Shown: positions 16,932-33,239 of the stretch, piece after piece
How positions within the stretch are numbered: the stretch's first letter is position 1
How the letters are laid out: every line of letters begins with the position of its first letter
Assembly (NCBI GenBank): GCA_014762625.1
Contig: JABURQ010000104.1
Coordinates: 1-34,163 of the forward strand
Reading direction: 5' to 3'
Length of the DNA stretch: 34,163 nt
From: Planctomycetaceae bacterium
GTDB lineage: Bacteria > Planctomycetota > Planctomycetia > Planctomycetales > Planctomycetaceae
Program-made: the position numbers and the translations under genes
The notes under the pieces: generated by a model
Databases searched by the model: none
Told to the model about the DNA's origin: nothing
The model's input: only the letters and a program-made list of their open reading frames with translations

Positions 16932-19900
16932 ATGCCGGCAACTGACGATTATCTGAGACAACCCAAAAAAATGCACCGGTGGTTCCTGGGGTCCGCCGTG
17001 GCGATGTTCGTTGCCTTCCTCTGGATGACGGCTGCCGATCACTCTCGCGAGTGGAAACAGTATCAGTCGAAGTTTTTTGATATTCAGATCCAGACTCTGG
17101 AGAAGGAACGAGAAGATTACAATCAGAGTGACGCCACTCAGCTGATCTCGCAATTGGAACAGGATCTCGAAGCCGCCAAGAGCACCGTCGACACGAATAA
17201 CAGTGAAATCGATGCGCTGAAGGAGGAAGTGGAGACTGCGGAAGCGAAATTTAATCTGATGGGAACGCAGGTTAAGTCGACCCGCGCCCAGCGAGATGTC
17301 GCCCGCGCTAATTACGATCTTGGCGTCCGCGATGCGATCCCCGAAGATCAACTGGCTGAGCTAAGAACTATATTTGATGATTGGCAAGCCCGGGTCGATC
17401 GGGAAGAGCTCACGCTTGAGGAATTGAAATCAAAAGTTGATTCTCTGTCGGCGGAATTGAAAGTGGCGACCGCCACCCGTGATAAAGCAGCGGAGCGTCT
17501 GGCTCAAGTGGCCAAAGACAAAGAGCAGCAGGAAAAACGGCTGGATGAACTGAATCCGAAAGCCGACGGCGTGATTGGCTTCGTGAATGTCGTTAAACGA
17601 GAGATCATGGAATGGCCGATTATCGACGGCTTTAACTCCCATCTCAGAATTCAGCAGGACTGGCTGCCCGACCTTGAAGAGCATCTGGGAATGACCAGTT
17701 CCGCTCGTTTCGATCGTTGCCGAACCTGTCACCTCGGGATTGATAAAGTGGCGGCGGGTAACGTTCCGCTCTATCCGCACGGTGGCGACATTGAAGAGCT
17801 TGGCGACAATTACAAACAGTGGGTCGAAGAAGGCAAGTTTCCGCATCCCTATTCGACACATCCGAATCCCGATCTGTATCTGACATCGACCAGCCCTCAT
17901 CCCACCAAAGACTTTGGATGCACCATCTGTCACCAGGGGCAAGGATCGGGAACCAGTTTCCAGAATGCGTCTCACGGCCCAAACAGCCCCGTTCAGGAAC
18001 ACGAATGGAAAGAAGAATACGGCTGGTTTGATAACCACTTCTGGGAATATCCTATGATGCCGAAGCGATTCCAGGAATCGCAGTGCATCAAGTGTCACCA
18101 CAACGTCGTCGAACTGGGAGTGCATCCCGAGTTCGGAGCGTCGGCTCCGAAAGTGTATGAGGGGTATCAACTCGTTCGCACGTATGGCTGTTTCGGTTGT
18201 CATGAAATCCAAGGATACAAAGGGACCGACCCGATTGGTCCCGATTTGCGGCTCGAACCGCAAACGCCGGAAGAAGCAGAGCGGATTGCCAACGACCCGA
18301 ATCAGATCGCCGGCAAGATGCGAAAGGTCGGCCCCTCGTTGCGACATCTCGCTTCGAAAGTGGATCGCGGTTGGATCGAACATTGGACCGAAAATCCGAA
18401 AAACTTCCGTCCCTCCACTCGCATGCCTCGCTTCTTCCATCTCACCAACCAGCAGGATGAGGAGGCTGTGAAATACCAGCCGGTGGAAATCGCCGCCATA
18501 GCTCAGTTTCTGCTGAAGAACTCGGAAGAGTTCGATTACCTTGAACCGAAAGACGGCTACGAGCCGGATCCCGAGCGTGGCAAGTTACTGTTTTCGCAGA
18601 AAGGGTGTTTGGCCTGCCACTCTCATGAAGATTTCCCGGAAGCGACGGCCAGCTTTGGACCTGTTCTCAATCGAGTGCATGAGAAGTTGCCCGCCGGAGC
18701 GGATGGCTTTAAGTGGCTTTACACTTGGGTCAAGGAGCCTACAAAGTACCACACCCGTACCAAGATGCCCGATCTCTACCTCGATCCTTATAAAGAAGGA
18801 GAGACGGAAATCGATCCCGCTGCGGATATTGCCGCCTATCTGCTTCAGGGAGGATCGCAGGAATGGTCCACGATCGATGTGAACGAAGAGGCTCTGAACG
18901 AAATGGTTCAGCTTTTCTTGCGAGATGTGCTGACCAAGGATCAGTTCGATCGCTTTATGGAGTCTCGAGACCTGTCATTGGGCGGCGAACTCCTTGAGGC
19001 CAACCTGAAAGGGGATGAGGTCGAATTGTGGTTGGGTTCCGATGTGGGTGAAGTCAGCGATGAGAAGTGGAAGGAAATTCGCCTGAACTACATCGGACGC
19101 CGAACGGTCACACGTTACGGCTGTTACGGTTGCCACGACATGAGCGGCTTTGAGTCGGCTCGTCCGATCGGAGTGGCGTTACAGGACTGGGGTCGAAAAG
19201 ACCGAACCAAACTGGCGCCCGAGCACATTGAAGAATACCTCCATCTGCACGAGTTCAATTTTCTCGCGGTTCCATTACAGGAGAGTGAAGATGCAGAAGA
19301 AATTCTGGCCGACATCGAATCTCCCAAGGAGTTTGAGGAATGGGCGGAAGCTCGCGTCGCGGATGAGTCGATCTCCCGCAAGCCGTTCGAAGAAATGGTT
19401 CGCGAAACCGAACGAAGCCAGATACTCGGTGATGTGGCTCACGTTCTCGAAGAACTCGAACCAAACGAGTGGACTGAAGAACCTTACGAACACGATGGTG
19501 TCAAATACGTGCTGCTGTTACTTGAAAATGAGAGCATGCATCACAAAGTCGAAGGCTATGTGAAACGAGGTGAGGCGGGCTCCTTCACGAGTGAAGAAGA
19601 TCGTGAAAACGCAATGTCTGTCTCGTATCTGGTCGAAAATCTGCTGCACCACGGGCGAGCCGGGTTTGCCTGGCAGAAGATTCGCCAACCTCGCAGCTAC
19701 GATTTCGAGAAAGTCGAAACGAAAGATTACGACGAACGATTGCGGATGCCGAAGTTCCCATTCGACCAACAGCAGATCGAAGCCATCACCACCTTCGTAC
19801 TTGGCCTGGTCGCTGAACCGCCGGTCGAAAAATATCTCTACCGGCCCGATGGGCCGGCGGGAGATCGAATTGCCGGTGAGTACCTACTCCAGCAATATAA

Positions 19901-21413
19901 TTGCACAGGTTGCCATGTTTTGGAGATGCCTCAATACGAATATCTGGCCGAGATCGACAGCTTTCCTTCAGCCGCTGCGGGTGAGCCGGCAGATAATGCG
20001 GAGGCGATGTCGCTGTTAAACTCAATCGCCCCGCCGCGTAAAGTTTCTGTTCCGGGACACCTTACGAGTTTCCCGTATCAAGTGAGCGGATTCATGTCGA
20101 ACGTTCTGGACCTAGAAGAAGGTGAAGCTCCCGAGCATTGGGAAGCTTTTGTGAAAGCTCCGGGGGAGAGTGTCGCGGAGAAAGTGGCGAATTCCGGATA
20201 CGATTGGGAAACCGATCCGACCGAAGACTGGGAATTCTTCCTGACGTTGTGGGAACATCTGATCGTCGAACGTGAGAAATTGATGTCGCCGATCTACCCT
20301 CCTCGCAGCGAGAGTGAGTCTCAGGTGGTGGCTGTATTGGCGGAAGATCAAAGCGTCAATGCCGCCTTTACGATTCACGAAGAAACGGGCGACCTGGTCG
20401 TGAAGATTGTGGAGGAAGATTTGGAGTCTGCGTTGCAGCCTGAATCGGTCACTCTCGATCTGGATCTGGTTTCGGGGGCGGCAGAATTTACCCTCGTTGC
20501 GGAAGGTGAAACTTTCCTGCTTAAAAAAGATCAGTTCCCGGATAGCTTTAAGTCGTTGAGAGACCTGTATGGAACGGTGACGGTAAAATTCCCGGACGTC
20601 AAGATCACCCCTTCTTCCAAAGTGTCGTTCACCGGTGGCGGCTTGAAAGGCTATGAAGAAGCGCGAGGTGGTGACTTTACCTTCTGGCTGGTCGATCAGT
20701 TAGTTGAAAATGATAAGCGAGTGGGGGGATCGCGGGATGATGCCTGGAATTACGTCGCGCCGCCACTGATTCGCGAAGGGGCCAAAGTTCAGACTCCGTG
20801 GCTGTTCCGCTTTCTGCAGAATCCGGAAATGTTACGGCATATGACCGTTCTACGTATGCCGAAATTCAATATGTCTCCGGATGAAGCTCAGACGTTGGCC
20901 AATTATTTTGCCGCGGTGGACGAAACGCCCTATCCTTATCAAGAGGTTCCGCAAAAAGATGCCCCTTACCAGCGAGCGATGAACGAAATCTTCCACGAGA
21001 AGTATGAAGAAGCTCGAACGGACGATTACCTGTCGGAGTCATGGCAGATGTTTATGTTTAAGGGGAATAAGTGCATCGGCTGCCACTCGGTTGGAGGCCG
21101 CGAATACTTCTCAGCTGCCAAGCCGGGAGAGCCGGAAGTTCGCGGACCGAATTTACCGCGGGCTGAAGACCGTTTACAGCCGGATTGGACCCTGATGTGG
21201 ATTTATTATCCGAAATGGGCAACGCCCTACACCAAAATGCCTGTGAACTACCCGCTCGATAAGCCTTCGTCGTTGCCGTTGTTCGGTGCCGATCCACAGG
21301 CCCAAACGAAAGCCGTACGGGACGCCCTGATGAATCACGCCAAGCTTCTCGAAAAAGAAGGTGTGAAAATTTGGGACCTCCCTATGAATACAGAAGAGCA
21401 ATCCAATGACTAA
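16932..21413 (+). CDS. Giant membrane-anchored octaheme cytochrome c (bc-complex partner)
   Basis: This 1493-residue protein has one N-terminal membrane helix (about 16-35), a long coiled coil (about 45-210), and eight CxxCH heme sites starting at residues 263, 330, 385, 420, 559, 731, 991 and 1381. Several modules repeat a pattern ending in a methionine-proline pair suited as the distal heme ligand: TENPKNFRPSTRMPRFF, KEPTKYHTRTKMPDLY, RQPRSYD...LRMPKFPF and LQNPEMLRHMTVLRMPKF. Two heme-free insertions occur, at about 772-905 (acidic, parvulin-like in pattern) and about 1125-1245 (beta-rich). It occupies the place where cytochrome c1 or f would be and should carry electrons from the Rieske protein outward. 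Its stop overlaps the next gene by eight bases. No family name is claimed. Confidence 0.93.
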   Translation: MPATDDYLRQPKKMHRWFLGSAVAMFVAFLWMTAADHSREWKQYQSKFFDIQIQTLEKEREDYNQSDATQLISQLEQDLEAAKSTVDTNNSEIDALKEEVETAEAKFNLMGTQVKSTRAQRDVARANYDLGVRDAIPEDQLAELRTIFDDWQARVDREELTLEELKSKVDSLSAELKVATATRDKAAERLAQVAKDKEQQEKRLDELNPKADGVIGFVNVVKREIMEWPIIDGFNSHLRIQQDWLPDLEEHLGMTSSARFDRCRTCHLGIDKVAAGNVPLYPHGGDIEELGDNYKQWVEEGKFPHPYSTHPNPDLYLTSTSPHPTKDFGCTICHQGQGSGTSFQNASHGPNSPVQEHEWKEEYGWFDNHFWEYPMMPKRFQESQCIKCHHNVVELGVHPEFGASAPKVYEGYQLVRTYGCFGCHEIQGYKGTDPIGPDLRLEPQTPEEAERIANDPNQIAGKMRKVGPSLRHLASKVDRGWIEHWTENPKNFRPSTRMPRFFHLTNQQDEEAVKYQPVEIAAIAQFLLKNSEEFDYLEPKDGYEPDPERGKLLFSQKGCLACHSHEDFPEATASFGPVLNRVHEKLPAGADGFKWLYTWVKEPTKYHTRTKMPDLYLDPYKEGETEIDPAADIAAYLLQGGSQEWSTIDVNEEALNEMVQLFLRDVLTKDQFDRFMESRDLSLGGELLEANLKGDEVELWLGSDVGEVSDEKWKEIRLNYIGRRTVTRYGCYGCHDMSGFESARPIGVALQDWGRKDRTKLAPEHIEEYLHLHEFNFLAVPLQESEDAEEILADIESPKEFEEWAEARVADESISRKPFEEMVRETERSQILGDVAHVLEELEPNEWTEEPYEHDGVKYVLLLLENESMHHKVEGYVKRGEAGSFTSEEDRENAMSVSYLVENLLHHGRAGFAWQKIRQPRSYDFEKVETKDYDERLRMPKFPFDQQQIEAITTFVLGLVAEPPVEKYLYRPDGPAGDRIAGEYLLQQYNCTGCHVLEMPQYEYLAEIDSFPSAAAGEPADNAEAMSLLNSIAPPRKVSVPGHLTSFPYQVSGFMSNVLDLEEGEAPEHWEAFVKAPGESVAEKVANSGYDWETDPTEDWEFFLTLWEHLIVEREKLMSPIYPPRSESESQVVAVLAEDQSVNAAFTIHEETGDLVVKIVEEDLESALQPESVTLDLDLVSGAAEFTLVAEGETFLLKKDQFPDSFKSLRDLYGTVTVKFPDVKITPSSKVSFTGGGLKGYEEARGGDFTFWLVDQLVENDKRVGGSRDDAWNYVAPPLIREGAKVQTPWLFRFLQNPEMLRHMTVLRMPKFNMSPDEAQTLANYFAAVDETPYPYQEVPQKDAPYQRAMNEIFHEKYEEARTDDYLSESWQMFMFKGNKCIGCHSVGGREYFSAAKPGEPEVRGPNLPRAEDRLQPDWTLMWIYYPKWATPYTKMPVNYPLDKPSSLPLFGADPQAQTKAVRDALMNHAKLLEKEGVKIWDLPMNTEEQSND

Positions 21414-22290
21414 TACCTCAATCAAAAAACTTGCGATATTGACTGTTCTGCCATTGCTGGTGATAGGCATTTGCCTCAGCGGTGTCGGTTGCGGAGGGGG
21501 AGCCGGTTCGGAAACGACGGTCACCCTGAAACCCGCCAGCTTGGAGTCTGAAGACTCAGGCGAGGAGTCAGGCGGAGGAAGCTCTTCCAAAGGCGGGACA
21601 CCCGCCGCAGGTTCCGGCCCCGGAAATCTAGTGGGCCGTTTCATGCTCAGCGGCTCGGCTCCCAACCTGTCTCCGTTAGTAGCGCAGGGTGCTGCCGTCA
21701 AGGATGCGGAATTCTGTTCGGCCAATGCAGTGCCCAATCAATCACTGGTCGTGGGAGACGGTGGCGGAATCGCCAATGTATTCATATTCCTCGATGAAGC
21801 TCCAAAAGGTTATGAGCCTCCGGAAGAACTTCCAGAACTGGTATTCGACCAGGATAATTGTACGTTTGAGCCTCATGGGCTTGTTGTGCAAGTTGGCCAG
21901 ACTGTCAAAGTGATGAACGCCGATGGTTGCGCTCATAACACAAATATGAAAGTGATCCGTAATAAAGCCTTCAATCAGGTCGTCAATGGAAACGATCGTA
22001 CTGGAGTGCCACTTATTTATGAAAAGCCGGAACCCAGTCCCATTCAGGCGGCTTGCGATTTCCACGCCTGGATGAAAGCTTACCATCTCGTTGTGGATCA
22101 TCCTTTTGCAGCATGTTCCAAAGCTGATGGGACGTTTGAAATCAAAAATCTACCGGCGGGAACCCATAAGTTTCGCATCTGGCATGAAAGTGCCGGGCTT
22201 CTCGAACGCGGTTTGAAAGTTGAGATTAAACCGGGCGTTGATAACCAACTCGAACAATCTTACGCGATAGGTGATTTTGCGGATCTGTAA
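21406..22290 (+). CDS. Cupredoxin-like (type I copper) exported protein
   Basis: This 294-residue protein has a hydrophobic export signal ending near SGVGC (C29). That resembles a lipobox but has Gly at -3, so lipid anchoring is uncertain. A Ser/Gly-rich spacer (about 46-75) leads to a cupredoxin-like domain with candidate copper ligands H177 (GCAHNTN), C217, H220 and M223 (CDFHAWM, the C-x2-H-x2-M pattern of type I sites). A C-terminal FEIKNLPAGTHKFRIWH strand pattern follows. Its position between the octaheme cytochrome and the oxidase genes suggests it shuttles electrons between them. It starts inside the previous gene (eight-base overlap). Confidence 0.8.
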   Translation: MTNTSIKKLAILTVLPLLVIGICLSGVGCGGGAGSETTVTLKPASLESEDSGEESGGGSSSKGGTPAAGSGPGNLVGRFMLSGSAPNLSPLVAQGAAVKDAEFCSANAVPNQSLVVGDGGGIANVFIFLDEAPKGYEPPEELPELVFDQDNCTFEPHGLVVQVGQTVKVMNADGCAHNTNMKVIRNKAFNQVVNGNDRTGVPLIYEKPEPSPIQAACDFHAWMKAYHLVVDHPFAACSKADGTFEIKNLPAGTHKFRIWHESAGLLERGLKVEIKPGVDNQLEQSYAIGDFADL

Positions 22291-22318
22291 GCTCCGCTCC
22301 CGATCAGAGTTAAACATT

Positions 22319-23878
22319 ATGAGACTTTCCAGCTTCGGAGTCCTCCCTGTGAGTATCCGTCAAAAAATCAAATTGTTGGCAGTTCTGTGTGTCGGTTTTG
22401 TATTGACCGGATGCGATGCCTTTTCGCCACCCGAAGCCAAATTCGTCGTGCGCGAAGAAACTACTGAGTTGACCGATGACGTCGCCGATTCTGTCGAGAA
22501 GGAATTAGAGAGTGCGTTTGGCACGCCTCACGAATTGGTAGCCTGGTTGAAATTGCCGATCGATTACGGCGGTATTCCGGGGGCGACGGAAGAAAGCGAT
22601 ATCGAAGGTCCGCTCAACAAATTCCCGGTGGCTTTTGACGCCGAGGCGGATGAAGTATTTCAGTCGCAGTTTCGGGAGGAAGACGGAGAGTTTCATTTTG
22701 GTGAGAGAGGTACGCGCCTCGATTGGGTCACAGGTGAGTACGCGGGCCAAACCATGCACGTTACCGGTTACGATCCCGAAAAGAACTTTCTGACGACAAG
22801 AGAAAAAATGGAGATTGCACCCGCAGCTGGAGACACATTCGTGCTCAGCGCCGGTGACAAGCTGAAAGCAGGCCGGGCTCTCTACATGGAGCACTGTATG
22901 CACTGCCACGGAGTCAGCGGTGACGGCAACGGTCCGACGGCCCCGTATTTGAATCCCCGCCCGCGTGATTATCGACTGGGACAGTTCAAATTCAAATCAA
23001 CCAAACCTGCTGAAAAAATTCGCCGGGACGATCTGAGTCGGATTATCAAATACGGAATCCCCGGAACGTATATGCCCTCTTTCCTACTCCTCGAAGAGGA
23101 TCAATTACTGGCTCTGGTGGAATATGTACGCTGGCTCTCGATGCGAGGAGAATTGGAATATCGAGCAGACCAGGAGTTGATTCTGGCCAGCGGCTTGACC
23201 GAAGAAATCATCGACGAACGTATTGAAGACGGCGACACTCCAGAGGAAATTCAGGAAGAAGTGGACGATGCCGTAGCTGAAATGCCCGAGCTATTCGATG
23301 GCTTAGCGGAAGGTTTAGCGGAGAGTTGGGCGTTTGCTGAAGACGAGGAGAGTCTCATCGTACCGACCGTCGCCCGAGTTCCCGATACTTTCGAATCCCG
23401 AGCTCGAGGACGGAAATTCTTCCTCGAAAAATGTACCAACTGTCACGGCTACAACGGTCGCGGTAATGGTTCCATGACCGAGGACTTCCAGGAGAATGAG
23501 CAGACGAAGGAACTCTACCCTGAGCCTGGACTGTTCGATATCTGGGGGAACCCAATTAAGCCGAGGAACCTGACAAAAGGACTTTATCGCGGAGGACGTC
23601 GTCCGATCGATTTATACCGTCGCCTCTTCGGCGGCATCGGCCCTTCAAAGATGCCGAACTTTGCGACGACCGATCCTTCGACTTTGTGGGATACCGTGAA
23701 CTACGTGATGCACATCCCGTTTGAAAAACCAGATGAGTACACTGAGGTGGATCAGGAATATTTCGAACAGAAAAAAGCCGCTGGCGGTGAGGAACCGAAA
23801 ACCGCCGATCGGGATGCTGATTCCGCCGAAATCAAACAGACTTCGACCGGAACGACTGAGTCGTCCGATCAGGGATAA
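22319..23878 (+). CDS. Diheme cytochrome c lipoprotein
   Basis: This 519-residue protein has a signal with a good lipobox (VLTGC, C32) and two CxxCH sites, CMHCHGVSGDGNG (193) and CTNCHGYNGRGNG (372). Each is followed by a Met-containing distal segment (for example GTYMPSF and SKMPNF). Between the hemes is an acidic helical stretch of about 100 residues (TEEIIDERIEDGDTPEEIQ). I chose the ATG at 22319, where the signal begins. A role as donor to the adjacent CoxB CuA site, like the cytochrome domain of caa3 oxidases but on a separate lipoprotein, is inferred from the gene order. Confidence 0.88.
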   Translation: MRLSSFGVLPVSIRQKIKLLAVLCVGFVLTGCDAFSPPEAKFVVREETTELTDDVADSVEKELESAFGTPHELVAWLKLPIDYGGIPGATEESDIEGPLNKFPVAFDAEADEVFQSQFREEDGEFHFGERGTRLDWVTGEYAGQTMHVTGYDPEKNFLTTREKMEIAPAAGDTFVLSAGDKLKAGRALYMEHCMHCHGVSGDGNGPTAPYLNPRPRDYRLGQFKFKSTKPAEKIRRDDLSRIIKYGIPGTYMPSFLLLEEDQLLALVEYVRWLSMRGELEYRADQELILASGLTEEIIDERIEDGDTPEEIQEEVDDAVAEMPELFDGLAEGLAESWAFAEDEESLIVPTVARVPDTFESRARGRKFFLEKCTNCHGYNGRGNGSMTEDFQENEQTKELYPEPGLFDIWGNPIKPRNLTKGLYRGGRRPIDLYRRLFGGIGPSKMPNFATTDPSTLWDTVNYVMHIPFEKPDEYTEVDQEYFEQKKAAGGEEPKTADRDADSAEIKQTSTGTTESSDQG

Positions 23879-23917: not shown

Positions 23918-24721
23918 GTGCGTTGGTTCTGGATCCTGTTTTTTGCCGTCTGTCCGATTGCGGCTCTGGTGATTTGCATCATTGCCCCCGGCATGGATTG
24001 GTGGTTTCCGAGTGAAGCCGGTTCTCCTCTGGGAGAACGGATCGATTCGCTCTTCCACCTGATTCTGTACATCGTGACCGGGACGTTTATCGGGACGCAA
24101 ATTGCCATGGTCTTCGTGTTGTGGAAAAGTTCCAAACAGGACGATGAACGAGCTTGGTTCTCTCACGGTTCGCACAATCTGGAAGTGATCTGGACCATCG
24201 TACCTGCGGGGATTCTGCTCTTCATCGCGCTGTATCAGATGGATGTGTGGGCGGAATACCGAGTGGTTTCCAATTTCCCCAAAGAAGCGCGGAGAGCCCC
24301 CGTTGCCGAGGTCATGGCTCGCCAGTTCGAATGGCGAATCCGCTATCCCGAACCGGGACGCATCCTCCAGATTCAGGCTCAACCGACCGACCTGTACGCG
24401 GTGAATGAATTGATCGTCCCCGCGGCGAAACCGGTGATGATTTATCTGAAAACGCAAGACGTTCAACACTCGTTCTTTCTTCCCGAGCTGCGTGTCAAAC
24501 AGGACGCAGTCCCTGGGCAGATTATTCCGGTTTGGTTTGAAGCGACGAAACCCGGAGAATACGACCTTGTCTGTGCCGAATTGTGCGGATGGGGACACTA
24601 TAAAATGGGAGCGCGTGTTGTCGCCCTGGCGGAAGAAGAGTTTGCAGCCGCCATGGAACAGCTCGAAACCGAACAATCAGACGACGGCTTCGCCGAATCT
24701 GGCGATGACGACGAAGAATAA
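23918..24721 (+). CDS. coxB: Cytochrome c oxidase subunit II
   Basis: This 267-residue protein has two N-terminal membrane helices (about 4-24 and 44-69) and a periplasmic cupredoxin domain with a complete CuA site: H184, C219, E221, C223, H227 and M230 (CAELCGWGHYKM). It lacks a fused cytochrome c domain, and the C-terminus is acidic. Start is GTG at 23918, backed by AAGGAG nine bases upstream. It accepts electrons, probably from the diheme lipoprotein or cupredoxin upstream, and passes them to CoxA. Confidence 0.96.
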   Translation: MRWFWILFFAVCPIAALVICIIAPGMDWWFPSEAGSPLGERIDSLFHLILYIVTGTFIGTQIAMVFVLWKSSKQDDERAWFSHGSHNLEVIWTIVPAGILLFIALYQMDVWAEYRVVSNFPKEARRAPVAEVMARQFEWRIRYPEPGRILQIQAQPTDLYAVNELIVPAAKPVMIYLKTQDVQHSFFLPELRVKQDAVPGQIIPVWFEATKPGEYDLVCAELCGWGHYKMGARVVALAEEEFAAAMEQLETEQSDDGFAESGDDDEE

Positions 24722-24737
24722 CCAATTGAGGTGAATT

Positions 24738-26552
24738 GTGAGTGAAGCACATCCCACAACCCACGACGACGCTCATGGCCATGGTCACGAGCAGGGGTTC
24801 GTCAGTAAATACATTTTTTCCACCGACCATAAAGTGATTGGGATTCAATTCCTGGTCACCACACTGTTGATGTTGATGGTAGGAGGTGCGTTAGCGCTGG
24901 GTGTCCGCTGGCAGTTGGCCTTCCCTTGGGAAAGCATGCCGATTGTGGGACCGATGCTGTTCAGCGGTGATGGTGGACAAATATCCCCCGAGTTTTACAC
25001 GATGCTGTTTACGATGCACGCAACGGTGATGATTTTTCTGGTCATCATTCCGATCCTAGCCGGGGCGTTTGGGAACTTCCTGATCCCGCTGATGATTGGT
25101 GCCGACGATATGGCATTCCCCGTGCTGAACATGCTCAGCTACTGGTTCATGTGGCCGGCAATTACCTGTTTCTTTGCCAGCTTCTTCTGTGCCGGAAATG
25201 GAGCGGCGGCGGGATGGACGTCTTATCCTGTCCTGTCGGCGATCGCGGAATCGGCTCCGGGCTCGGGGATGGCCCAAAACTGGTGGTTGCTCGGCGTGAC
25301 TCTGGTGGGCGTCTCGTCGATGATGGGATCGGTCAACTACATGACCACCATTATCAATATGCGAGCTCCCGGCATGACTTTGTTCCGGATGCCGCTCACG
25401 ATCTGGGGAATGTTTATTACGGCGATTCTACAGGCCTTTGCGTTGCCGGTGCTGACCGCGGCAGGTTTCATGCTGGTCGCCGACCGCTTACTGGGGACTT
25501 GTTTCTTCATACCCGCCGGTCTGGTGGTCAACAATGCCGATCCAACCGTTGGTGGCGGTCAGTCTTTGTTGTGGCAGCATTTGTTTTGGTTCTACTCGCA
25601 TCCGGCGGTCTACATCATGTTGCTGCCGGCGATGGGAATGGTGTCCGATATGCTCTCCGCAGCGGCTCGAAAGCCGATCTTCGGGTACAAGCCGATGGTT
25701 TACTCGATGGCCGCGATTGCCGGTCTCGGGTTTATCGTGTGGGGACACCACATGTTTACCTCGGGGATGAATCCGGCACTCGGAATGACCTTCATGACCT
25801 CAACAATGATGATCGCCTTGCCCTCCGCGATCAAAACCTTCAACTGGATCGGAACGATCTGGGGTGGAAAGATTGAGTTCAATACCTTTACCCTCAACAG
25901 CATCGCTTTTGTTTCCATGTTCGTCGTGGGTGGTCTGAGCGGGATTTTCATGGCGGCGGTTCCCGTCGATATTTACATCCACGATACCTATTTCATCGTC
26001 GCTCACTTCCATTACGTTCTCTTCGGGGCCACGTTGTTCGGCGTGTTCGGTGCTATCTATTTCTGGTATCCGAAAATGTTCGGACGCAAGATGAACGACA
26101 CCCTTGGGAAATGGCACTTTTTCCTGACCTTCCTGGGAGCCAACGGAACATTCTTCCCGATGCACCTGTTGGGAGTCGCCGGAATGCCTCGCCGATACGC
26201 GAACCCCTACCTTCACGACTATCTCGAGCACTTGTTGCCGATGAACCAATTCATGACTTACTCCGCGATCCTGATGGGGAGCGCCCAATTTCTATTGCTG
26301 TTTAACTTCGCTTACAGCTTGTTTTACGGCGAAAAAGTGGGACGCAACCCGTGGAAAGCAAACGGACTCGAATGGACGGCCCCGTCTCCTCCGGGACACG
26401 GCAATTTCGATGTTCTGCCAGTCTGCTACCGCGGACCTTACGAGTATTCTTCGCCCTTGGTCGAAGAAGATTACCTCTTGCAGACAGAATACATTCCTCC
26501 TGAAGGTCAGAAGGAATCCAAAGAAGAACACGCCGAACCCGAACACGCCTGA
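24738..26552 (+). CDS. coxA: Cytochrome c oxidase subunit I, A2 type
   Basis: This 604-residue protein is a heme-copper oxidase catalytic subunit with about 12 membrane helices. Ligands visible are H94 (low-spin heme), H288 with Y292 (HPAVY), H337/H338 (CuB), H423 and H425. The helix VI motif is FWFYSHPAVYI. Tyr-Ser at 286-287 replaces the Glu of A1 enzymes (HPEVYI), which marks an A2-type oxidase. The N-terminus contains five histidines in its first 17 residues. Start is GTG with GAGGTG nearby, 16 bases after coxB. Confidence 0.96.
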   Translation: MSEAHPTTHDDAHGHGHEQGFVSKYIFSTDHKVIGIQFLVTTLLMLMVGGALALGVRWQLAFPWESMPIVGPMLFSGDGGQISPEFYTMLFTMHATVMIFLVIIPILAGAFGNFLIPLMIGADDMAFPVLNMLSYWFMWPAITCFFASFFCAGNGAAAGWTSYPVLSAIAESAPGSGMAQNWWLLGVTLVGVSSMMGSVNYMTTIINMRAPGMTLFRMPLTIWGMFITAILQAFALPVLTAAGFMLVADRLLGTCFFIPAGLVVNNADPTVGGGQSLLWQHLFWFYSHPAVYIMLLPAMGMVSDMLSAAARKPIFGYKPMVYSMAAIAGLGFIVWGHHMFTSGMNPALGMTFMTSTMMIALPSAIKTFNWIGTIWGGKIEFNTFTLNSIAFVSMFVVGGLSGIFMAAVPVDIYIHDTYFIVAHFHYVLFGATLFGVFGAIYFWYPKMFGRKMNDTLGKWHFFLTFLGANGTFFPMHLLGVAGMPRRYANPYLHDYLEHLLPMNQFMTYSAILMGSAQFLLLFNFAYSLFYGEKVGRNPWKANGLEWTAPSPPGHGNFDVLPVCYRGPYEYSSPLVEEDYLLQTEYIPPEGQKESKEEHAEPEHA

Positions 26553-26569: not shown

Positions 26570-27550
26570 ATGGGTCACTCTCCCTCCTACAATCCCTGGT
26601 TACACCGCTTTGCGGTCCTGACAACGTGCGTTGCACTGTTGCCGGTGACGCTGGGCGCCCTGACAACTTCGGAAGGGGCCGGGATGGCGTTCCCAGATTG
26701 GCCCACTTCTGACGGCTACAACATGCTGTTCTATCCGTGGCTCCAATCGACGGGAGATGAGTTCCTGGAACACGGTCATCGACTGGCGGGCATGCTCATA
26801 GGACTGTTCAGCATGGGACTGGTGACTCTGGTCTGGAAATACGAAAGCCGATTGTGGGTCACTTTTGCCGGTTTTGTGGTTTTGTTAAGCGTCATCGCCC
26901 AGGGGATCCTGGGAGGCCTTCGAGTTCTCGAAAACGATCCGCGACTCGCCATGGTTCACGGTTTGTTTGCCGCTCTGGTCTTCGCGCTGATGGCAGCCGT
27001 CTCGCTGTTTACCAGTCGCAAGTGGCTCTCCGCCGAACAGAAAAACGTGGAACGCGATCCGAATTCTCTCAAACCATGGGCCATCGCTGCGGCAGTCTTA
27101 ATTCTGGGGCAGTATGCTCTCGGTGGTTTTCTCCGTCATCGAGGAACGGCACTGTTTGAACATATGGGAATGGCGGTTGTCGTTCTCGCCGTTGTGATTT
27201 CCCTGGTCATCGCATCCCGGAAGACGCGAGAACTGTGGGTCACTCGCCCGGCGTGGGGATTACTCGCTTTAACGGTGATTCAGATTTCGTTGGGACTGGC
27301 GACATTCATTACAAAATTCGGCCTGAAAGCGGCTGGCTGGGTGGCTGTCGCCGGAACAACCTTGCAGACTTCTATTCGCAGCGGGCACACCATTGTCGGC
27401 ATGTTGCTGCTGATGACAGCGATTGTGATTGTGCTGCGAGTGTACCGTCTCTCTCACGTTTGGAACTTACAACATCCGGAACAGATGGCCGACAGGCCTC
27501 TCACTGGTTCATCATTCAATCGGATGACGATGGAAGGAGGGACCCCGTGA
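26570..27550 (+). CDS. ctaA: Heme A synthase (CtaA/Cox15 family)
   Basis: This 326-residue protein has eight hydrophobic helices in two halves, with conserved histidines in FLEHGHRLAG, MVHGLFA, LFEHMGMA and SGHTIVGML, and the early AFPDWPT motif typical of the family. It converts heme O to heme A for the neighbouring A2-type oxidase. The stop overlaps the ctaB start as GTGA. Confidence 0.93.
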   Translation: MGHSPSYNPWLHRFAVLTTCVALLPVTLGALTTSEGAGMAFPDWPTSDGYNMLFYPWLQSTGDEFLEHGHRLAGMLIGLFSMGLVTLVWKYESRLWVTFAGFVVLLSVIAQGILGGLRVLENDPRLAMVHGLFAALVFALMAAVSLFTSRKWLSAEQKNVERDPNSLKPWAIAAAVLILGQYALGGFLRHRGTALFEHMGMAVVVLAVVISLVIASRKTRELWVTRPAWGLLALTVIQISLGLATFITKFGLKAAGWVAVAGTTLQTSIRSGHTIVGMLLLMTAIVIVLRVYRLSHVWNLQHPEQMADRPLTGSSFNRMTMEGGTP

Positions 27551-28482
27551 GTTCCGCCGGACCTTCCAGTACCCGAACCATGACTCTTTCCGGTCGCAAC
27601 GCGATTGCGTCACGGCTGGCTGATTACGTCGAACTGACCAAACCGAAAATCGCCGTCATGGCGTTAGTGACGGTGACTGTTGGCTATACACTGGCGGCTC
27701 AGGGGCCGTGGTTCAGTTGGTCCTTGCTCTCCGCCATGGCCGGGATTGCCCTGATGGCCATCGCCTCCAGCAGTCTCAATCAATGGGTGGAACGAGAGAC
27801 GGATGCCCTGATGCATCGTACTTCCGATCGCCCGATACCGGCCGGTCGTCTCCATCCCGCTGAAGTTTTCTGGTTTGGGTTGGGATGTGGTCTCTCCGGG
27901 ACATTCATCCTGGCGGTCTATGTGAATGCGACCACTGCCTGGTTGGGTCTATTCACGTTCGCACTTTATACGTTCCTCTATACGCCGCTGAAACGATATA
28001 CCTCGTTATGCACGGCGATTGGAGCGATTCCGGGGGCTTTGCCTCCTGTGTTAGGTTGGACGGCCGGCGGAGGAGAGTTGAATTCCTCCGCATTCGCTCT
28101 GTTTGGGATCCTGTTCCTGTGGCAGTTTCCACATTTTCTCGCCATTGCCTGGCTTTATCGAGAAGACTATTCGCGAGCAGGTTTGAAAATGCTTCCGGCG
28201 AAAGTCCAGTCTGACGGAGCGAAGAAGATCACCGGATATCTCGCGACCGCTTATGCGACCGCGTTGATTCCTGTGAGCGTGCTGCCGAGCGAAGTTGGAC
28301 TGGCGGGTTCACGTTACCTGTGGTCGGCGTTAGTGTTGGGCCTCGGTTATCTGGTTGTCAGTCTGCTGATGATTCGGGACGAGTCCCGCCGGTCGGCACG
28401 ACGCGTCCTTTATTACTCTTTAGTTTATTTGCCGCTGTTGTTGATCGCACTGACGTGGGATCATCTGGCGCTTTTGCAATAA
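27547..28482 (+). CDS. ctaB: Protoheme IX farnesyltransferase (heme O synthase)
   Basis: This 311-residue UbiA-family membrane prenyltransferase carries the catalytic Asp-rich stretch NQWVERETDALMHRTSDRP and the second loop YTPLKRYTS. It attaches farnesyl to heme B, upstream of CtaA. I place the start at GTG 27547, because GGAGG lies about seven bases upstream and it gives a four-base overlap with ctaA. An ATG eleven codons later is a weaker alternative. A longer frame opening at 27235 lies inside ctaA and is not coding. Confidence 0.93.
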   Translation: MSSAGPSSTRTMTLSGRNAIASRLADYVELTKPKIAVMALVTVTVGYTLAAQGPWFSWSLLSAMAGIALMAIASSSLNQWVERETDALMHRTSDRPIPAGRLHPAEVFWFGLGCGLSGTFILAVYVNATTAWLGLFTFALYTFLYTPLKRYTSLCTAIGAIPGALPPVLGWTAGGGELNSSAFALFGILFLWQFPHFLAIAWLYREDYSRAGLKMLPAKVQSDGAKKITGYLATAYATALIPVSVLPSEVGLAGSRYLWSALVLGLGYLVVSLLMIRDESRRSARRVLYYSLVYLPLLLIALTWDHLALLQ

Positions 28483-28521: not shown

Positions 28522-29544
28522 ATGTCTCACTCCACTTCACATCAAGCCGGTTCCAATCTGAAAATGGGTCTCCCCATTCCGAATTCCAAACTCGGGATGT
28601 GGCTGTTCCTCGGAACCGAAATCATGTTTTTCACGGCTTTCATCGGTTCGTACATCGTGCTGCGTATGGGGTCACAAGGTTGGCCCAGCGATCCGCATGT
28701 GACACACATCAATGTTTTTCTCGGTGGAACGAACACTTTCGTGCTGATCGTCTCCAGCTACTGTGTGGTGGTGGCTCACGAATCGATGTCTAAAAAGAAC
28801 TTCAAACGTGCCTTAAAATTCCTGTGGGTGACGACCTGTCTGGGGTTTGTCTTTATGGGGATCAAATCGGTTGAATATTACGGCAAGATCAGTCACCGAA
28901 TTCTGCCGGGCATGATCGCCGAAAACGACTGGCAAGCAACACAGATGGCGATGGACGATTTCGATCACGCCGTAGAGAAGACCGGTTACAGTGACATGAA
29001 ACTGGAACTGGGGGACCTGCAGAAAGAGTTAGCAGCTGCTGAGGAGGATGACAAAGCGTCGATTGAAACGCGGATTGAAGAACTCCAAAAATCAATTGCT
29101 GCGATTGACCCGTTTGCCAACGCCGTAAAGCGATTCAAAGCAGAGGCGAAGAAAGAGCAAATGGAATACGATCTGCAATCGGGAGAGGAGGAGTTGATCG
29201 CCTCCCAAGTCGAGGGTGACTCCGAACTGAACTTTGAGCCGCTTTCGTTGACCGGTTCCGTGCAGGCACTGAAGGGTAAATACCCGGACTATGCGTCTCA
29301 CGTTCACGAGCCGCACGTCATTCTGTACGGCAATATCTTCGCTTCGACTTACTTTCTAATGACCGGCTTTCATGCGATTCACGTGATTGTCGGCCTGATT
29401 CTGTTTGCTTTTGTTCTCAAACAGGGAGCGAAGCTGGATGAAACCTGGACCGATTGGGTCGAAAACAGCGGCTTGTATTGGCACTTTGTCGACCTGGTTT
29501 GGATTTTCCTGTTCCCCTTGCTGTATATCGTCGACTTCACATAA
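28522..29544 (+). CDS. coxC: Cytochrome c oxidase subunit III with a coiled-coil insertion
   Basis: This 340-residue protein has the family features [15 protein letters not shown] at the start and [12 protein letters not shown] and [17 protein letters not shown] at the end, with about five membrane helices. Residues about 130-262 are a soluble insertion rich in Glu, Lys and Ala ([20 protein letters not shown] and similar), predicted as a coiled coil, between two membrane helices. Ordinary subunit III of this type is near 200 residues. The insert likely projects to one side of the membrane and could contact another complex. Confidence 0.93.
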
Positions 29545-29610
29545 TTTGATCTCAAGCACGACTTGATCGACTTGGAAAGCTTTCTTGCCGAGTCATTTGA
29601 GGAAACCATC

Positions 29611-30132
29611 ATGGCCTACCGCGATACTGGACACGAAGATCATTCCCACGGTCACGTTTCGTACATCGCCGTCTTTTTTGCTCTGTGTATTTTTACTGGC
29701 CTCTCGGTTTTGGCAGATGTCATTCATCTACCGAATACGGCTGTGAAAACTGTGATCGTGATGGCGATTGCGGTGGCCAAAGCCACCTGTGTGATGCTGT
29801 TCTTCATGCACCTCAAATTTGAGGGAAACTGGAAATATATTCTTTTGGCACCGACGACCATTCTGGCGATTGGCCTACCGATCGCCCTGATGCCGGATGT
29901 AGCCACCAGTTATTACATCAGCGATGTCCCGCAGAAGTACGATTACGAAGAGTTCATGGCCGTGCACGGTCATCATGAGGGCGAAGCACACGCCGAAGGC
30001 GACCACCACGCAGGAGACGCTCATGAAGAAGGCGAGCACGAACATACTGAAGGTGACGATCACAATAGCCATGAAGGCGAAGAACATGAGGAGCACGGCG
30101 GTACCGAGGCCGCGGAATCCAGCGAAGAATGA
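29611..30132 (+). CDS. Cytochrome c oxidase subunit IV-like (CoxD/CyoD) with a His-rich tail
   Basis: This 173-residue protein has three membrane helices in the prokaryotic COX4 pattern, including AKATCVMLFFMHLKFE and then PTTILAIGLPIALM. The N-terminus carries HEDHSHGH. The C-terminal ~57 residues hold 13 histidines among Glu, Asp and Gly, a likely metal-binding tail. The ATG at 29611 is preceded by GAGGAAA; an upstream TTG is less likely. The stop overlaps the ABC ATPase start (ATGA). Confidence 0.88.
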   Translation: MAYRDTGHEDHSHGHVSYIAVFFALCIFTGLSVLADVIHLPNTAVKTVIVMAIAVAKATCVMLFFMHLKFEGNWKYILLAPTTILAIGLPIALMPDVATSYYISDVPQKYDYEEFMAVHGHHEGEAHAEGDHHAGDAHEEGEHEHTEGDDHNSHEGEEHEEHGGTEAAESSEE

Positions 30133-31073
30133 TATCTGAACCCGCCGCCATTCAAGTTGAGGCTGTCTCCTACGCCTACGGTGAACGGCCTGCATTGCGG
30201 GATGTTTCTTTTCAGGTCGAGTCGCAGGAGATCTTCGGTCTTCTCGGCCCCAACGGTTCCGGTAAAACAACGCTGTTTCGCCTGTTGTGTACGCTCCTGC
30301 CCATCCAGTCCGGGCAGGCGTCTCTCGCTCAAGCCGATGTGGCCACGGCTCCCGAGGCTGTCCGGCGCAAGATTGGAATCACCTTTCAGGCTCCCAGTCT
30401 GGATGATCGGTTGACGGTCCGGGAAAATCTGAAACATCACGGTCATCTCTATGGATTGCGTGGGTCGGAGTTATCGCAGCGCATCGCGGAATTGCTCGAA
30501 CATGTTGGTCTGTCCGACCGAATCAACGAAACCGTTTCCAAACTCTCGGGCGGAATGAAACGTCGCGTTGAAATTGCCAAAGGATTATTACATCGACCGG
30601 AAGTGCTCCTCCTCGATGAGCCGAGTACAGGGCTCGATCCCGGAGCGCGTCACGACTTATGGCGTTATCTCCATCGTCTTCGCGACGAGCAACGCGTGAC
30701 CGTTCTAGTGACCACACATTTAATGGAAGAAGCCGAACGCTGCGATCGTCTGGCGATTTTGAACCACGGGGAACTGGTGGCGTTAGAGACTCCCGAGCGA
30801 TTGCGAAGTTCAATCGGCGGGGATTGCATCACGATTCAAACCGACGACAACGAGCTTCTCCGCAAAAAACTGGCGGATCAATTTCAGATCGAGGCCACAC
30901 CGATCGGTCCGCAATTAAGAATTGAGCGAGAAAACGGGCACGAACTGATCCGCGATCTCGTGGCTGCTTTCCCTGAAGAGATCGAATCCATCTCCCTCGG
31001 AAAACCGACACTCGAAGATGTCTTCATTCAGAAAACTGGGCATCGATTCTGGGAATCGGAGGATGTGGAATGA
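30129..31073 (+). CDS. ABC transporter ATP-binding protein (NodI/DrrA/CcmA-like)
   Basis: This 314-residue ATPase shows Walker A GPNGSGKTT (40-48), Q-loop TFQAP, signature LSGGMKRR (139-146), Walker B VLLLDEPSTGLDP (159-171) and the switch His TTHLMEEAERC. A C-terminal extension of about 90 residues, ending in LEDVFIQKTG, is typical of the DrrA/NosF-like branch. It works with the permease encoded four bases downstream. The placement between oxidase and Sco genes suggests a job in oxidase assembly, perhaps metal or cofactor handling, but the cargo is not shown by the sequence. Confidence 0.92.
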   Translation: MISEPAAIQVEAVSYAYGERPALRDVSFQVESQEIFGLLGPNGSGKTTLFRLLCTLLPIQSGQASLAQADVATAPEAVRRKIGITFQAPSLDDRLTVRENLKHHGHLYGLRGSELSQRIAELLEHVGLSDRINETVSKLSGGMKRRVEIAKGLLHRPEVLLLDEPSTGLDPGARHDLWRYLHRLRDEQRVTVLVTTHLMEEAERCDRLAILNHGELVALETPERLRSSIGGDCITIQTDDNELLRKKLADQFQIEATPIGPQLRIERENGHELIRDLVAAFPEEIESISLGKPTLEDVFIQKTGHRFWESEDVE

Positions 31074-31912
31074 GTTCGACCTCTTCCTTCTCCAATTCTT
31101 GCTTGGCGGTGTTCTCGTTGACTCAACGTGAGATCGTCCGCTTTTTGCGCCAACGAACTCGAGTCGTCGGAGCCTTGGGACAACCGGTCATCTTCTGGAT
31201 TCTATTCGGGGCGGGATTGTATGGATCGTTTCAGCCCCCCGAGTGGGCGTCCGCCGACATGACCTACCAGGAATATTTTTTCCCGGGTGTCGCCGTCATG
31301 ATCTTACTGTTCACGGCGATCTTTTCGACCATTTCAATCATCGAGGATCGCCGCGAGGGATTTTTACAGGGGGTGCTCGTTTCGCCGGTTCCACGATCGG
31401 TCATCGTGTTTGGTAAGTTGTTGGGTGGTACGGTGTTAGCTGTGGGGCAAGCCGTGATCTTCCTGATCTTCGGATTTTGTCTGCATGGGGTGGGTTTGGC
31501 TCCGGAAATTCACCTCGACCTGACTGTCCTCGACTGGTGCCAGGTCCTATTATTCATGTGTCTGTTGGGTATGACACTCACCGCCTTGGGCTATGTCATC
31601 GCTTGGCCGATGTCGTCGACGCAAGGGTTTCACGCCATTATGAGTGTGTTCCTGTTGCCGATGTGGCTACTGTCGGGAGCCATTTTTCCGGTGGGGGCGA
31701 GTGGCTGGCTCTCTTGGGTGATGTGGTTAAATCCCTTAACCTATGGTGTGGCCTGTTTACGTCGCTTGATGTACGCGGGGGCGATCAGTTCCAATGCTGT
31801 AGGATTACCGACACTCGGCACCAGCCTGATTGTGACGAGTCTATTTGGTGTGGTTTGTCTGATCCTGGCGACTTACTTCACGGCTCGTCGATCTTCCCTG
31901 AATACTCGATAA
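31070..31912 (+). CDS. ABC-2 type permease
   Basis: This 280-residue protein has six hydrophobic segments and the ABC-2 family layout. A cytoplasmic lead-in (LTQREIVRFLRQRTRVVGA) is followed by a FPGVAVMILL helix, the conserved REGFLQGVLVSPVPR loop, and the late WLLSGAIFPVGASGWLSWVMWLNPLTYGV stretch that ends in the family's NPLTY. It overlaps the ATPase gene by four bases (ATGA) and forms one exporter with it. Confidence 0.9.
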   Translation: MSSTSSFSNSCLAVFSLTQREIVRFLRQRTRVVGALGQPVIFWILFGAGLYGSFQPPEWASADMTYQEYFFPGVAVMILLFTAIFSTISIIEDRREGFLQGVLVSPVPRSVIVFGKLLGGTVLAVGQAVIFLIFGFCLHGVGLAPEIHLDLTVLDWCQVLLFMCLLGMTLTALGYVIAWPMSSTQGFHAIMSVFLLPMWLLSGAIFPVGASGWLSWVMWLNPLTYGVACLRRLMYAGAISSNAVGLPTLGTSLIVTSLFGVVCLILATYFTARRSSLNTR

Positions 31913-31941
31913 TCAATCTCTCCGCTCAGGAGTGTTTCCCA

Positions 31942-32793
31942 ATGTCTGAAAACACCACTACGACTAAAAAATCTGAATCGGAGTCTCCTCCGAAGAGTCT
32001 CGAAATGAAGTTCATGTACAGCTTCATTGTGTTGCTGTGGATAGCCGCCGGTGCGGCGGTCTACGTCACTTTTTTCTCGGAGGAAGCGCGACAGCAGATC
32101 ACCAATGCAGATTCCAATCTCAATAAATATGCTGACGTCGAAGGGTTGGAACCGGCGGAGGTCGATGAAGCGCAGAAGAAAATCGTCTTCAATTCTCAAG
32201 GCGAAGTGGTCGATCCGGAAGCAGCGAACGAGTTACCGCGGGCGTTAGAGCCGTTCACGCTCACGAATCAGTCGGGAGAAACTATCGGTTTGGAAGAGCT
32301 GAAGGGAAAACCGTGGGTGGGAACTTTTGTGTTTACGAGTTGTCCCGGCCCCTGTTCGATGATTACGGGGCGCATGAAACAATTGCAATCGGATCTGGAA
32401 GGCGTCGATTTCAATCTGGTTTCCGTGACCGTCGATCCCAAAAATGATACTCCGGAAAAATTGACCAAATACGCCGACGCCTTTACCGCCGACCTCAACA
32501 ACTGGCAGTTTCTCACGGGGGACGCGGAAGTGATTTACGAATTGATTCGCGGCGGCTTCAAGATGCCGGTCGCGGAGATGAAACCGGGGGATATCATGCA
32601 TACCAATCGGTTCGTGGTTGTGGATGCCGACGGAAATTACGTCGATTCTTTTATTGCTCTCAAGGATGACGAATACTTTGCCTTGAAGAAACGGATTCGC
32701 GAACTCGCGGAAGCCAGTCAAGAGGACTCCCCGGTGAGCGAGCCCGAGTCTGTCGGCAAAGCCTCCTCTGGAGAGGAGTCCGAGACGCCGTGA
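31942..32793 (+). CDS. Sco1/SenC-family copper chaperone
   Basis: This 283-residue protein has one N-terminal membrane anchor (about 25-45) and a thioredoxin-like domain with the Sco copper site: C134 and C138 (TSCPGPCSM) and H220 (IMHTNRFV). DPKNDTPEKLTKY is the usual Sco segment after the second strand. It should deliver copper to the CuA centre of CoxB. The ATG at 31942 places the anchor at the normal position; the frame upstream lies within the permease gene. The stop overlaps the next start as GTGA. Confidence 0.94.
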   Translation: MSENTTTTKKSESESPPKSLEMKFMYSFIVLLWIAAGAAVYVTFFSEEARQQITNADSNLNKYADVEGLEPAEVDEAQKKIVFNSQGEVVDPEAANELPRALEPFTLTNQSGETIGLEELKGKPWVGTFVFTSCPGPCSMITGRMKQLQSDLEGVDFNLVSVTVDPKNDTPEKLTKYADAFTADLNNWQFLTGDAEVIYELIRGGFKMPVAEMKPGDIMHTNRFVVVDADGNYVDSFIALKDDEYFALKKRIRELAEASQEDSPVSEPESVGKASSGEESETP

Positions 32794-33239
32794 CTGCTCC
32801 CGATTGGGTCTATTTCCTTCCGACTGTGAACGCCGGTCTCAATTCCCTGGCCACGGTGTTATTGATCACCGGCTATTTGTTGATCAAACGGGGTCATCAA
32901 GCGGCTCACAAACAAGTCATGCTGGGAACGTTTGCGACGTCGGTGTTGTTTCTGGTGTGCTATCTAGCTTATCACTTCGCATTGAAGCATTATACCGGCG
33001 CCTCCTCACAACCCTTTCAGGGACAGGGAGTGATTCGTCCCGTCTACTTCATCATTTTGATCACCCACGTCATTCTGGCCGCGGTTGTTCCCATATTAGC
33101 TTCGGTTACGATCTATCGGGGATTGAAACAACAATGGGAAAAGCACCGTCGGATTGCCAAGGTCACTTTTCCAATTTGGCTGTACGTTTCTCTGACAGGG
33201 GTTATAATCTATGGGATGCTTTATCACTGGCCCGTCTGA
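32790..33239 (+). CDS. DUF420 family membrane protein
   Basis: This 149-residue protein has four membrane helices and the DUF420 features: PTVNAGLNSLATVLLITGY near the start, RGHQAAHKQVML, YHFALKHYTG, YFIILITHVILA and the final PIWLYVSLTGVIIYGMLYHW. The conserved histidines on helices suggest heme or metal contact. Members often lie next to Sco and oxidase genes and are thought to aid oxidase biogenesis. It starts with GTG overlapping the sco stop. Confidence 0.9.
   Translation: MTAPDWVYFLPTVNAGLNSLATVLLITGYLLIKRGHQAAHKQVMLGTFATSVLFLVCYLAYHFALKHYTGASSQPFQGQGVIRPVYFIILITHVILAAVVPILASVTIYRGLKQQWEKHRRIAKVTFPIWLYVSLTGVIIYGMLYHWPV

Follow-up and report, generated by a model that had tools for sequence, protein, structure and literature searches.

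An octaheme cytochrome c as a probable subunit of a b6-type Rieske/cytochrome b complex in a planctomycete

We analysed a stretch of 34,163 nucleotides from a Planctomycetaceae bacterium (contig JABURQ010000104.1 of assembly GCA_014762625.1; hereafter the window, meaning the whole stretch), which encodes a large cytochrome c with eight CxxCH haem-binding motifs. The gene of this octaheme protein follows those of a Rieske protein, a cytochrome b6-type subunit and a subunit-IV-like cytochrome b C-terminal half (SUIV). We propose, with a probability of about three in four, that the octaheme serves as c subunit in a Rieske/cytochrome b complex of b6 type and of the Kustd1480-1485 kind, most likely for aerobic respiration. 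Judged by its sequence, the window protein belongs to an already described kind of octaheme Rieske/b6-type complex; we place it there because of published work on Kuenenia and Nitrospina and because of its homology to a Kuenenia-type locus.

The Kuenenia complex is the subject of Hauser et al. 2025 (PMC12954380), which is cited throughout for the accessible part of its text. In that part, the Rieske/cytochrome b complex Kustd1480-1485 of Kuenenia stuttgartiensis is modelled with the octaheme Kustd1485, cytochrome f is said to be replaced by hexa- or octaheme cytochromes, and the long helices of Kustd1485 wrap half round the modelled complex, Rieske protein included. The same text identifies the structure PDB 9rk3 as Kustd1480, whose Rieske cluster was measured at +335 mV, and gives comigration of subunits for the other Kuenenia complex, Kuste4569-4574, which includes an HAO-like octaheme. 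In the Nitrospina gracilis genome paper (PMC3578206, again in its accessible part), Nitrospina, Kuenenia and Methylomirabilis are said to have an 'atypical octaheme cytochrome c' next to a b6f-like operon. The initial annotation of the window had matched the protein to no named family. This stands in so far as no Pfam or NCBIfam family covers the whole octaheme, but proteins of the same kind are described in the accessible text of these two papers.

Among the loci of relatives, L042 (genome G088) is the Kustd1480-1485 locus or nearly identical to it, because its Rieske protein is identical to 9rk3 at 117/117 positions and because His62, Arg266 and Lys267 of Kustd1481 (PMC12954380) coincide with the same residues in its b6 protein. 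The best PDB match of the window Rieske protein is also 9rk3 (E 2e-38), with an alignment that reaches the common C-terminus. The window octaheme matches the L042 octaheme with a phmmer E of 6.8e-65 and is identical to it at 248/909 aligned positions. Both loci encode a Rieske protein, split b6 and SUIV subunits, and an octaheme with a membrane helix and long helices; the octahemes can be aligned along their length and have the candidate haem ligands in common, as the loci do the KAPWYF and HLHP motifs. They differ in that b6 and SUIV of L042 flank a gene of the NAD(P)-oxidoreductase type where the window has no gene, in that the L042 octaheme has 948 residues and that of the window 1493, and in the cupredoxin, diheme and oxidase genes that the window adds. 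The operon of Nitrospina gracilis and Methylomirabilis oxyfera, compared by its description in the accessible text of PMC3578206, likewise comprises an Fe-S subunit, a split b6-like cytochrome b and an octaheme. It comes, unlike the window, from a nitrite oxidiser (Nitrospina) and a nitrite-driven methane oxidiser (Methylomirabilis oxyfera).

The gene order Rieske-b6-SUIV-octaheme recurs among the loci of relatives. To follow up the distribution in planctomycetes, which the initial annotation had recommended, we counted matches in 199 Planctomycetota genomes, using octaheme and b6 profiles (A1 and A2) that were built partly from the same genomes. A strong b6 match is present in 84 genomes, an octaheme match in 85, both in 83 and neither in 113, with four genomes that have b6 matches of ~270 bits alone set aside from the count. 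The corresponding Fisher p is about 1e-52, for species that are not independent. The octaheme is found without b6 in two genomes (G072 and G119), both of which are fragmented. Together with the recurrent gene order, the presence of the octaheme in 83 of the 84 genomes with this b6 type bears out the suggestion that it occupies the position of cytochrome c1 or f. Haem counts were verified only in 20 loci taken from the best matches: all have eight CxxCH, and in 16/20 the four genes follow one another directly. In L041 and L042 a reductase gene separates b6 from SUIV, the contig of L034 ends before the Rieske position, and b6 and SUIV of L040 fall outside the retrieved stretch, with a b6 match upstream of it. 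The octaheme complex is patchy even among the kin of the window. Genomes G048, G069, G181 and G152 (the window's own family) yielded no b6-type or octaheme match at the thresholds used.

The wider collection was scanned with b6 as the query because the best-conserved stretches of the octaheme are mostly CxxCH motifs. Of at least 591 b6 matches, the 80 best come from Planctomycetota, Acidobacteriota, Bdellovibrionota and Omnitrophota, and include single metagenome-assembled genomes (MAGs) labelled Woeseiaceae and Epsilonproteobacteria; since these are the best 80, the phyla listed are a minimum and are biased towards window-like b6. Among 61 loci whose sequence continues for at least 3.5 kb past SUIV, 57 encode one octaheme with eight CxxCH, and it starts at a median of 51 bp after SUIV. 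In L061 the octaheme appears as two open reading frames (ORFs; 2+6 haems), and in L103 six CxxCH are visible and two are hidden by unread bases. The octahemes of three MAGs titled Candidatus Kuenenia stuttgartiensis (L070, L074 and L086) group with Planctomycetia in the octaheme tree, far from the locus identified by 9rk3, and their labels therefore look wrong.

These results also bear on the possibility that the octaheme is an independent periplasmic hub or reductase (of nitrite or metals) and a mere neighbour of the bc-type genes. Octaheme proteins of the HAO family are enzymes, and the haem count and size of the window protein exceed what c1 or f would need. Furthermore, the other Kuenenia complex carries an HAO-like octaheme (PMC12954380). 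An independent function is opposed by the almost complete co-occurrence of octaheme and b6 type and by the short distance from SUIV, as does a locus of the Kuste4569-4574 type (L140), whose HAO-like protein (5723-7477) is matched neither by the window protein nor by the octaheme profile (E <= 0.001; one comparison). An HAO-type identity was rejected on this comparison, and we regard an independent hub as highly improbable. The octahemes of PMC11266412 are described in its accessible text as HAO/Onr-like, and according to the same text Phycisphaerales have no bc1 complex. The b6 and SUIV subunits of L140 carry the same motifs as those of the window. Unlike the window, L140 has a six-haem cytochrome of 363 residues, which gives a weak profile match to the octaheme family (41 bits), a separate eight-haem HAO-like gene and a reductase-type gene of 581 residues (identities from PMC12954380).

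The features of the window are collected in Table 1.

Table 1. Features of the octaheme locus in the window, in window coordinates.
Feature	Position	Strand	Basis and remarks
Rieske [2Fe-2S] protein, 366 aa	13461..14561	+	Pfam Rieske; long N-terminal part, one hydrophobic segment 202-226
Cytochrome b6-type subunit, 257 aa	14620..15393	+	Pfam Cytochrome_B; Cys57 (haem cn/ci position), His39 (= Kustd1481 His62)
SUIV, 460 aa	15458..16840	+	Pfam Cytochrom_B_C
Octaheme cytochrome c subunit	16932..21413	+	1493 aa, ATG start, eight CxxCH
N-terminal membrane helix, residues 11-37	16962..17042	+	AlphaFold2 secondary structure; hydropathy 17-36
Predicted coiled-coil helical hairpin, residues 40-207, turn ~134-137	17049..17552	+	AlphaFold2 helices
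Haems 1-3 (CxxCH 263, 330, 385) with candidate distal ligands His310, His323, His348	17718..18098	+	each His 80/80
Class-I-like cytochrome c unit, haem 4 with Met498	18189..18428	+	Met in 80/80 aligned sequences
Class-I-like cytochrome c unit, haem 5 with Met612	18606..18770	+	Pfam Cytochrom_C 548-639; Met 80/80
Haem 6 (731) with Met939, insertion-enlarged	19122..19751	+	Met 80/80; motif spacing vs compact relatives
Haem 7 (991) with Met1309, insertion-enlarged	19902..20861	+	Met 80/80; motif spacing vs compact relatives
Haem 8 (1381) with Met1436	21072..21242	+	Met 79/80, remaining row gapped there
Cupredoxin-like protein, candidate electron carrier	21406..22290	+	start overlaps octaheme stop; no Pfam match
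Diheme cytochrome c, candidate electron carrier	22271..23878	+	Pfam Cytochrom_C, two stretches
Cytochrome c oxidase subunit II	23918..24721	+	Pfam COX2; NCBIfam CoxB above cut-off
Cytochrome c oxidase subunit I	24738..26552	+	Pfam COX1, E 1.6e-147
Haem A synthesis, CtaA type	26570-27550	+	Pfam
Haem A synthesis, UbiA/CtaB type	ORF 27235-28482	+	Pfam
Oxidase subunit III	28522-29544	+	Pfam COX3
Oxidase subunit IV	29563-30132	+	Pfam COX4
Accessory genes: ABC transporter pair, Sco-type protein, DUF420 protein	30129..33239	+	Pfam

The octaheme protein had been described in the initial annotation as anchored, with a long coiled coil and eight CxxCH sites, and the ORF, hydropathy, AlphaFold2 and the motif count agree with this description. 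The motifs are found at residues 263, 330, 385, 420, 559, 731, 991 and 1381 and use all 16 cysteines of the protein; in 20,000 shuffles of its residues, CxxCH occurred 0.005 times on average and at most once. Residues 17-36 form the sole hydrophobic segment. An AlphaFold2 model of residues 1-980 (pLDDT 80.9, pTM 0.73) has helices after the anchor at 40-65, 68-87, 90-133 and 138-207. Given the break between helices, residues 40-207 of the model would fold as a hairpin, and in NCBIfam residues 45-212 weakly match an SMC-type coiled coil. The model of a compact relative (L097, 952 residues), made at full length (pLDDT 81.8, pTM 0.67), begins likewise with helices at 13-39, 42-139 (with short breaks) and 146-216.

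Candidate haem ligands were read from an alignment of 80 octaheme sequences, the window included, which consists of sequences with eight CxxCH and of L103, with contig-end fragments and the split octaheme of L061 left out. As the rows were picked for eight CxxCH, the conservation of these motifs in the alignment is a product of selection. The conserved histidines and methionines (Table 1) suggest three bis-His and five His/Met haems, under a putative pairing of ligands with haems. Compared to L097, the window protein is longer by 541 residues, 418 of which lie between haems 6 and 8 by motif positions; among relatives, the length varies from about 940 to 1802 residues. In the octaheme tree (quick method, no mixture model, long branches flagged), all forms of ~940-990 residues belong to the half without the window protein. 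That half also holds forms of up to 1695 residues, and size is thus no marker of a single clade. The octahemes of L042 (6313-9159) and L097 (11924-14782) exceed the NCBIfam cut-off for SoxX (TIGR04485) via single cytochrome units. Automatic pipelines may therefore mislabel octahemes as SoxX, which is a hazard of naming and not a sign of kinship.

Cytochrome b is encoded as two separate halves (Pfam), as in cytochrome b6f and unlike cytochrome bc1. Furthermore, Cys57 of b6 aligns with the cysteine that carries the covalently bound inner c-type haem of b6 in b6f structures, and this haem-cn cysteine is present in 80/81 b6 proteins. Glycine replaces it in two b6 proteins (L100, 9932-10822; L044, 5076-5966), and these variants provide a natural test of the role of haem cn. 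Unlike b6f, the window has an octaheme for cytochrome f and the motif KAPWYF in SUIV. KAPWYF occurs in 80/80 SUIV proteins (window included, SUIV pieces of <= 300 residues left out), at the place that PEWY takes in bc1-type cytochrome b. In NCBIfam, the window b6 is nearest to ExtP, with 261 bits and under the cut-off of 290. The N-terminal region of the window Rieske protein, ahead of the membrane segment, has repeated STSDILAAARAQA-type units; several related planctomycete Rieske ORFs are likewise long.

An unlinked conventional cytochrome c1 or f gene, which according to the initial annotation would speak against an octaheme in this position, was rejected by a search of the whole genome. 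Cytochrome f (PF01333) has no match there, and the only match to cytochrome c1 (PF02167) covers 32 positions inside a diheme ORF of 1282 residues on another contig. The genome does hold a second Rieske/cytochrome b complex, with a fused diheme c, on contig C8 (Kuste3096-3097 type). It belongs to the same Rieske/cytochrome b family in the same organism, but its cytochrome b is unsplit and carries PEWY, it has two fused c haems, and it has neither HLHP nor the haem-cn cysteine motif.

One conserved residue of b6 has been linked to a different function. For Kuenenia, the accessible text of PMC12954380 proposes that His62 of Kustd1481 binds a novel haem b, which would act as a relay to NAD(P)+. 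The equivalent of this residue, His39 in the window, is kept in 81/81 b6 proteins by motif (80 of the HLHP type and LHLHS in L100) and in 16/16 sequences of the b6 alignment A2; the unsplit cytochromes b of the window genome and of L141 are without it. An electron-bifurcating complex that makes NAD(P)H, in which the low-potential electron would pass to NAD(P)+ via an iron-sulphur/flavin subunit with no Q cycle, would be consistent with the four core subunits and the putative extra-haem histidine, as in Kustd1481, and with a Rieske cluster loop nearly identical to that of Kustd1480. The linked genes, however, led us to reject it. Homologues of the Kuenenia reductase (L042, 3541-5241) were found among 100 relative loci in just L041 and L042, plus one match of 24 bits in L110, with limited flanks and unlinked copies not searched. 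In the window, the Pfam scan of 20 ORFs between 9932 and 33545 detected no NAD(P) oxidoreductase, an unlinked copy in the genome not being searched for. NAD(P)H formation by the window complex thus has a very slim chance in our judgement. As His39 is kept where the flanks showed no reductase (the 24-bit match aside), either the haem is general to complexes of this kind or the histidine has another role. The extra-haem proposal published for Kuenenia (PMC12954380, accessible part) is now testable.

Downstream of the octaheme, the cupredoxin, diheme and oxidase genes follow as initially annotated, by Pfam and, for the cupredoxin, by its ligand set. This type-1-copper-like set consists of H177, C217, H220 and M223, each present in 66/67 aligned sequences. 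A cupredoxin gene lies 3' of the octaheme in 39/52 loci with at least 2.5 kb downstream; in loci with at least 3.5 kb, the diheme is found there in 24/49 and oxidase subunit I or II also in 24/49. These counts are lower bounds, as the flanks are short. Being present in just 24/49 testable loci, the diheme can hardly be the constant c subunit, which further speaks against the octaheme as an independent hub. In the window genome, relatives of the cupredoxin and of the diheme adjoin another oxidase elsewhere, cbb3-like by our own reading. The two proteins are therefore probably general carriers.

A closer coupling would be an obligate III-IV supercomplex, in which the octaheme bridges the b6-type complex straight to the aa3 oxidase with no mobile carrier. 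In the actinobacterial bcc-aa3 supercomplex, a multi-haem c subunit, the diheme subunit, plays this bridging role and wires quinol oxidation to an aa3 oxidase; we use it as a functional comparison and claim no membership, since it has two haems and an unsplit cytochrome b, unlike the window. Such a bridge would fit the multi-haem architecture of the octaheme, the same-strand cluster of the window, which continues through the cupredoxin and diheme genes into those of the oxidase, and the oxidase genes downstream in the 24 loci. However, the likely carriers are encoded in between, 25/49 testable loci have no oxidase gene in the retrieved, short flank, and the genome encodes two further oxidases. 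We consider an obligate supercomplex unlikely.

The window chain is one of several in its genome, which has three haem-copper oxidases altogether. Contig C69 carries an NrfD/FeS/cytochrome cluster like alternative complex III, adjoining an oxidase whose subunit II carries CxxCH. Next to this subunit II, oxidase subunit I appears as two ORFs of 113 and 426 residues (L136, 9292-11678; genome G000), perhaps because the gene is broken or the assembly faulty. The view of the window genes as a 'dedicated' quinol-to-oxygen chain, possibly a supercomplex, is unproven, as the genome holds other quinol-oxidising complexes as well as the three oxidases.

Our reading of the octaheme as the c subunit of a respiratory complex joins two kinds of results. 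The gene set, the homology to the Kuenenia-type locus, the co-occurrence, the conserved ligand residues and the predicted helices were computed here, whereas we infer complex formation in this organism, the type of quinone, the direction and route of the electrons, the pairing of ligands with haems and the roles of the carriers. In the proposed working, menaquinol would be oxidised at a site to which the Rieske head and SUIV, with its KAPWYF region, both contribute. One electron would reduce quinone on the inner side, in a Q cycle, by way of the two b haems and of haem cn with its cysteine bond; the other would pass through the Rieske cluster to the octaheme. The octaheme would serve as a fixed multi-haem wire and as an electron store, probably with three bis-His haems and, after them, five of the His/Met type, and would hand electrons to the cupredoxin and diheme proteins, which may pass them on to CuA of the aa3 oxidase. 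By analogy with the model of Kustd1485, the probable role of the coiled coil is to clamp the octaheme round the Rieske protein.

Several observations weigh against this reading. Genome G106, from the family of G088, has the b6 type without an octaheme match, and in two loci (L093 and L112) that encode this type of b6 and SUIV, the ~8.7 kb downstream contain no octaheme. The 25 testable loci with no oxidase gene in the retrieved flank count here as well. Foldseek detected no matching solved fold in the PDB at E <= 0.001 for either the window or the L097 model, so that the haem arrangement is putative; the listed matches are mostly coiled coils, with SoxX, a single-haem cytochrome, near the top for the second model. 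Lastly, profile matches to single cytochrome c units are promiscuous.

Combining these findings, we tentatively raise a broader possibility, to which we give somewhat less than even odds. The b6-octaheme complex may be a third widespread Rieske/b class beside bc1 and b6f, present at least in Planctomycetota, Acidobacteriota, Bdellovibrionota and Omnitrophota and in the published Nitrospina and Methylomirabilis. In this class, an octaheme wire and reservoir with three bis-His and five His/Met haems would stand in both for c1 or f and for the first mobile carrier. The extra histidine on the dimer face of b6, possibly with an extra haem b, would then serve an ordinary aerobic complex and not the making of NAD(P)H.

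With the window, what was a curiosity of anammox bacteria and nitrite oxidisers moves into apparently ordinary aerobic respiration. The complex seems common, as 83 of the 199 sampled planctomycete genomes match both the b6 type and the octaheme. This suggests that the octaheme complex is ordinary in kind and more widespread than the published descriptions imply, as far as their accessible text goes. The operon is also carried by Adhaeretor mobilis (L076), a planctomycete with a complete genome, which would permit biochemistry of the complex without anammox cultures.

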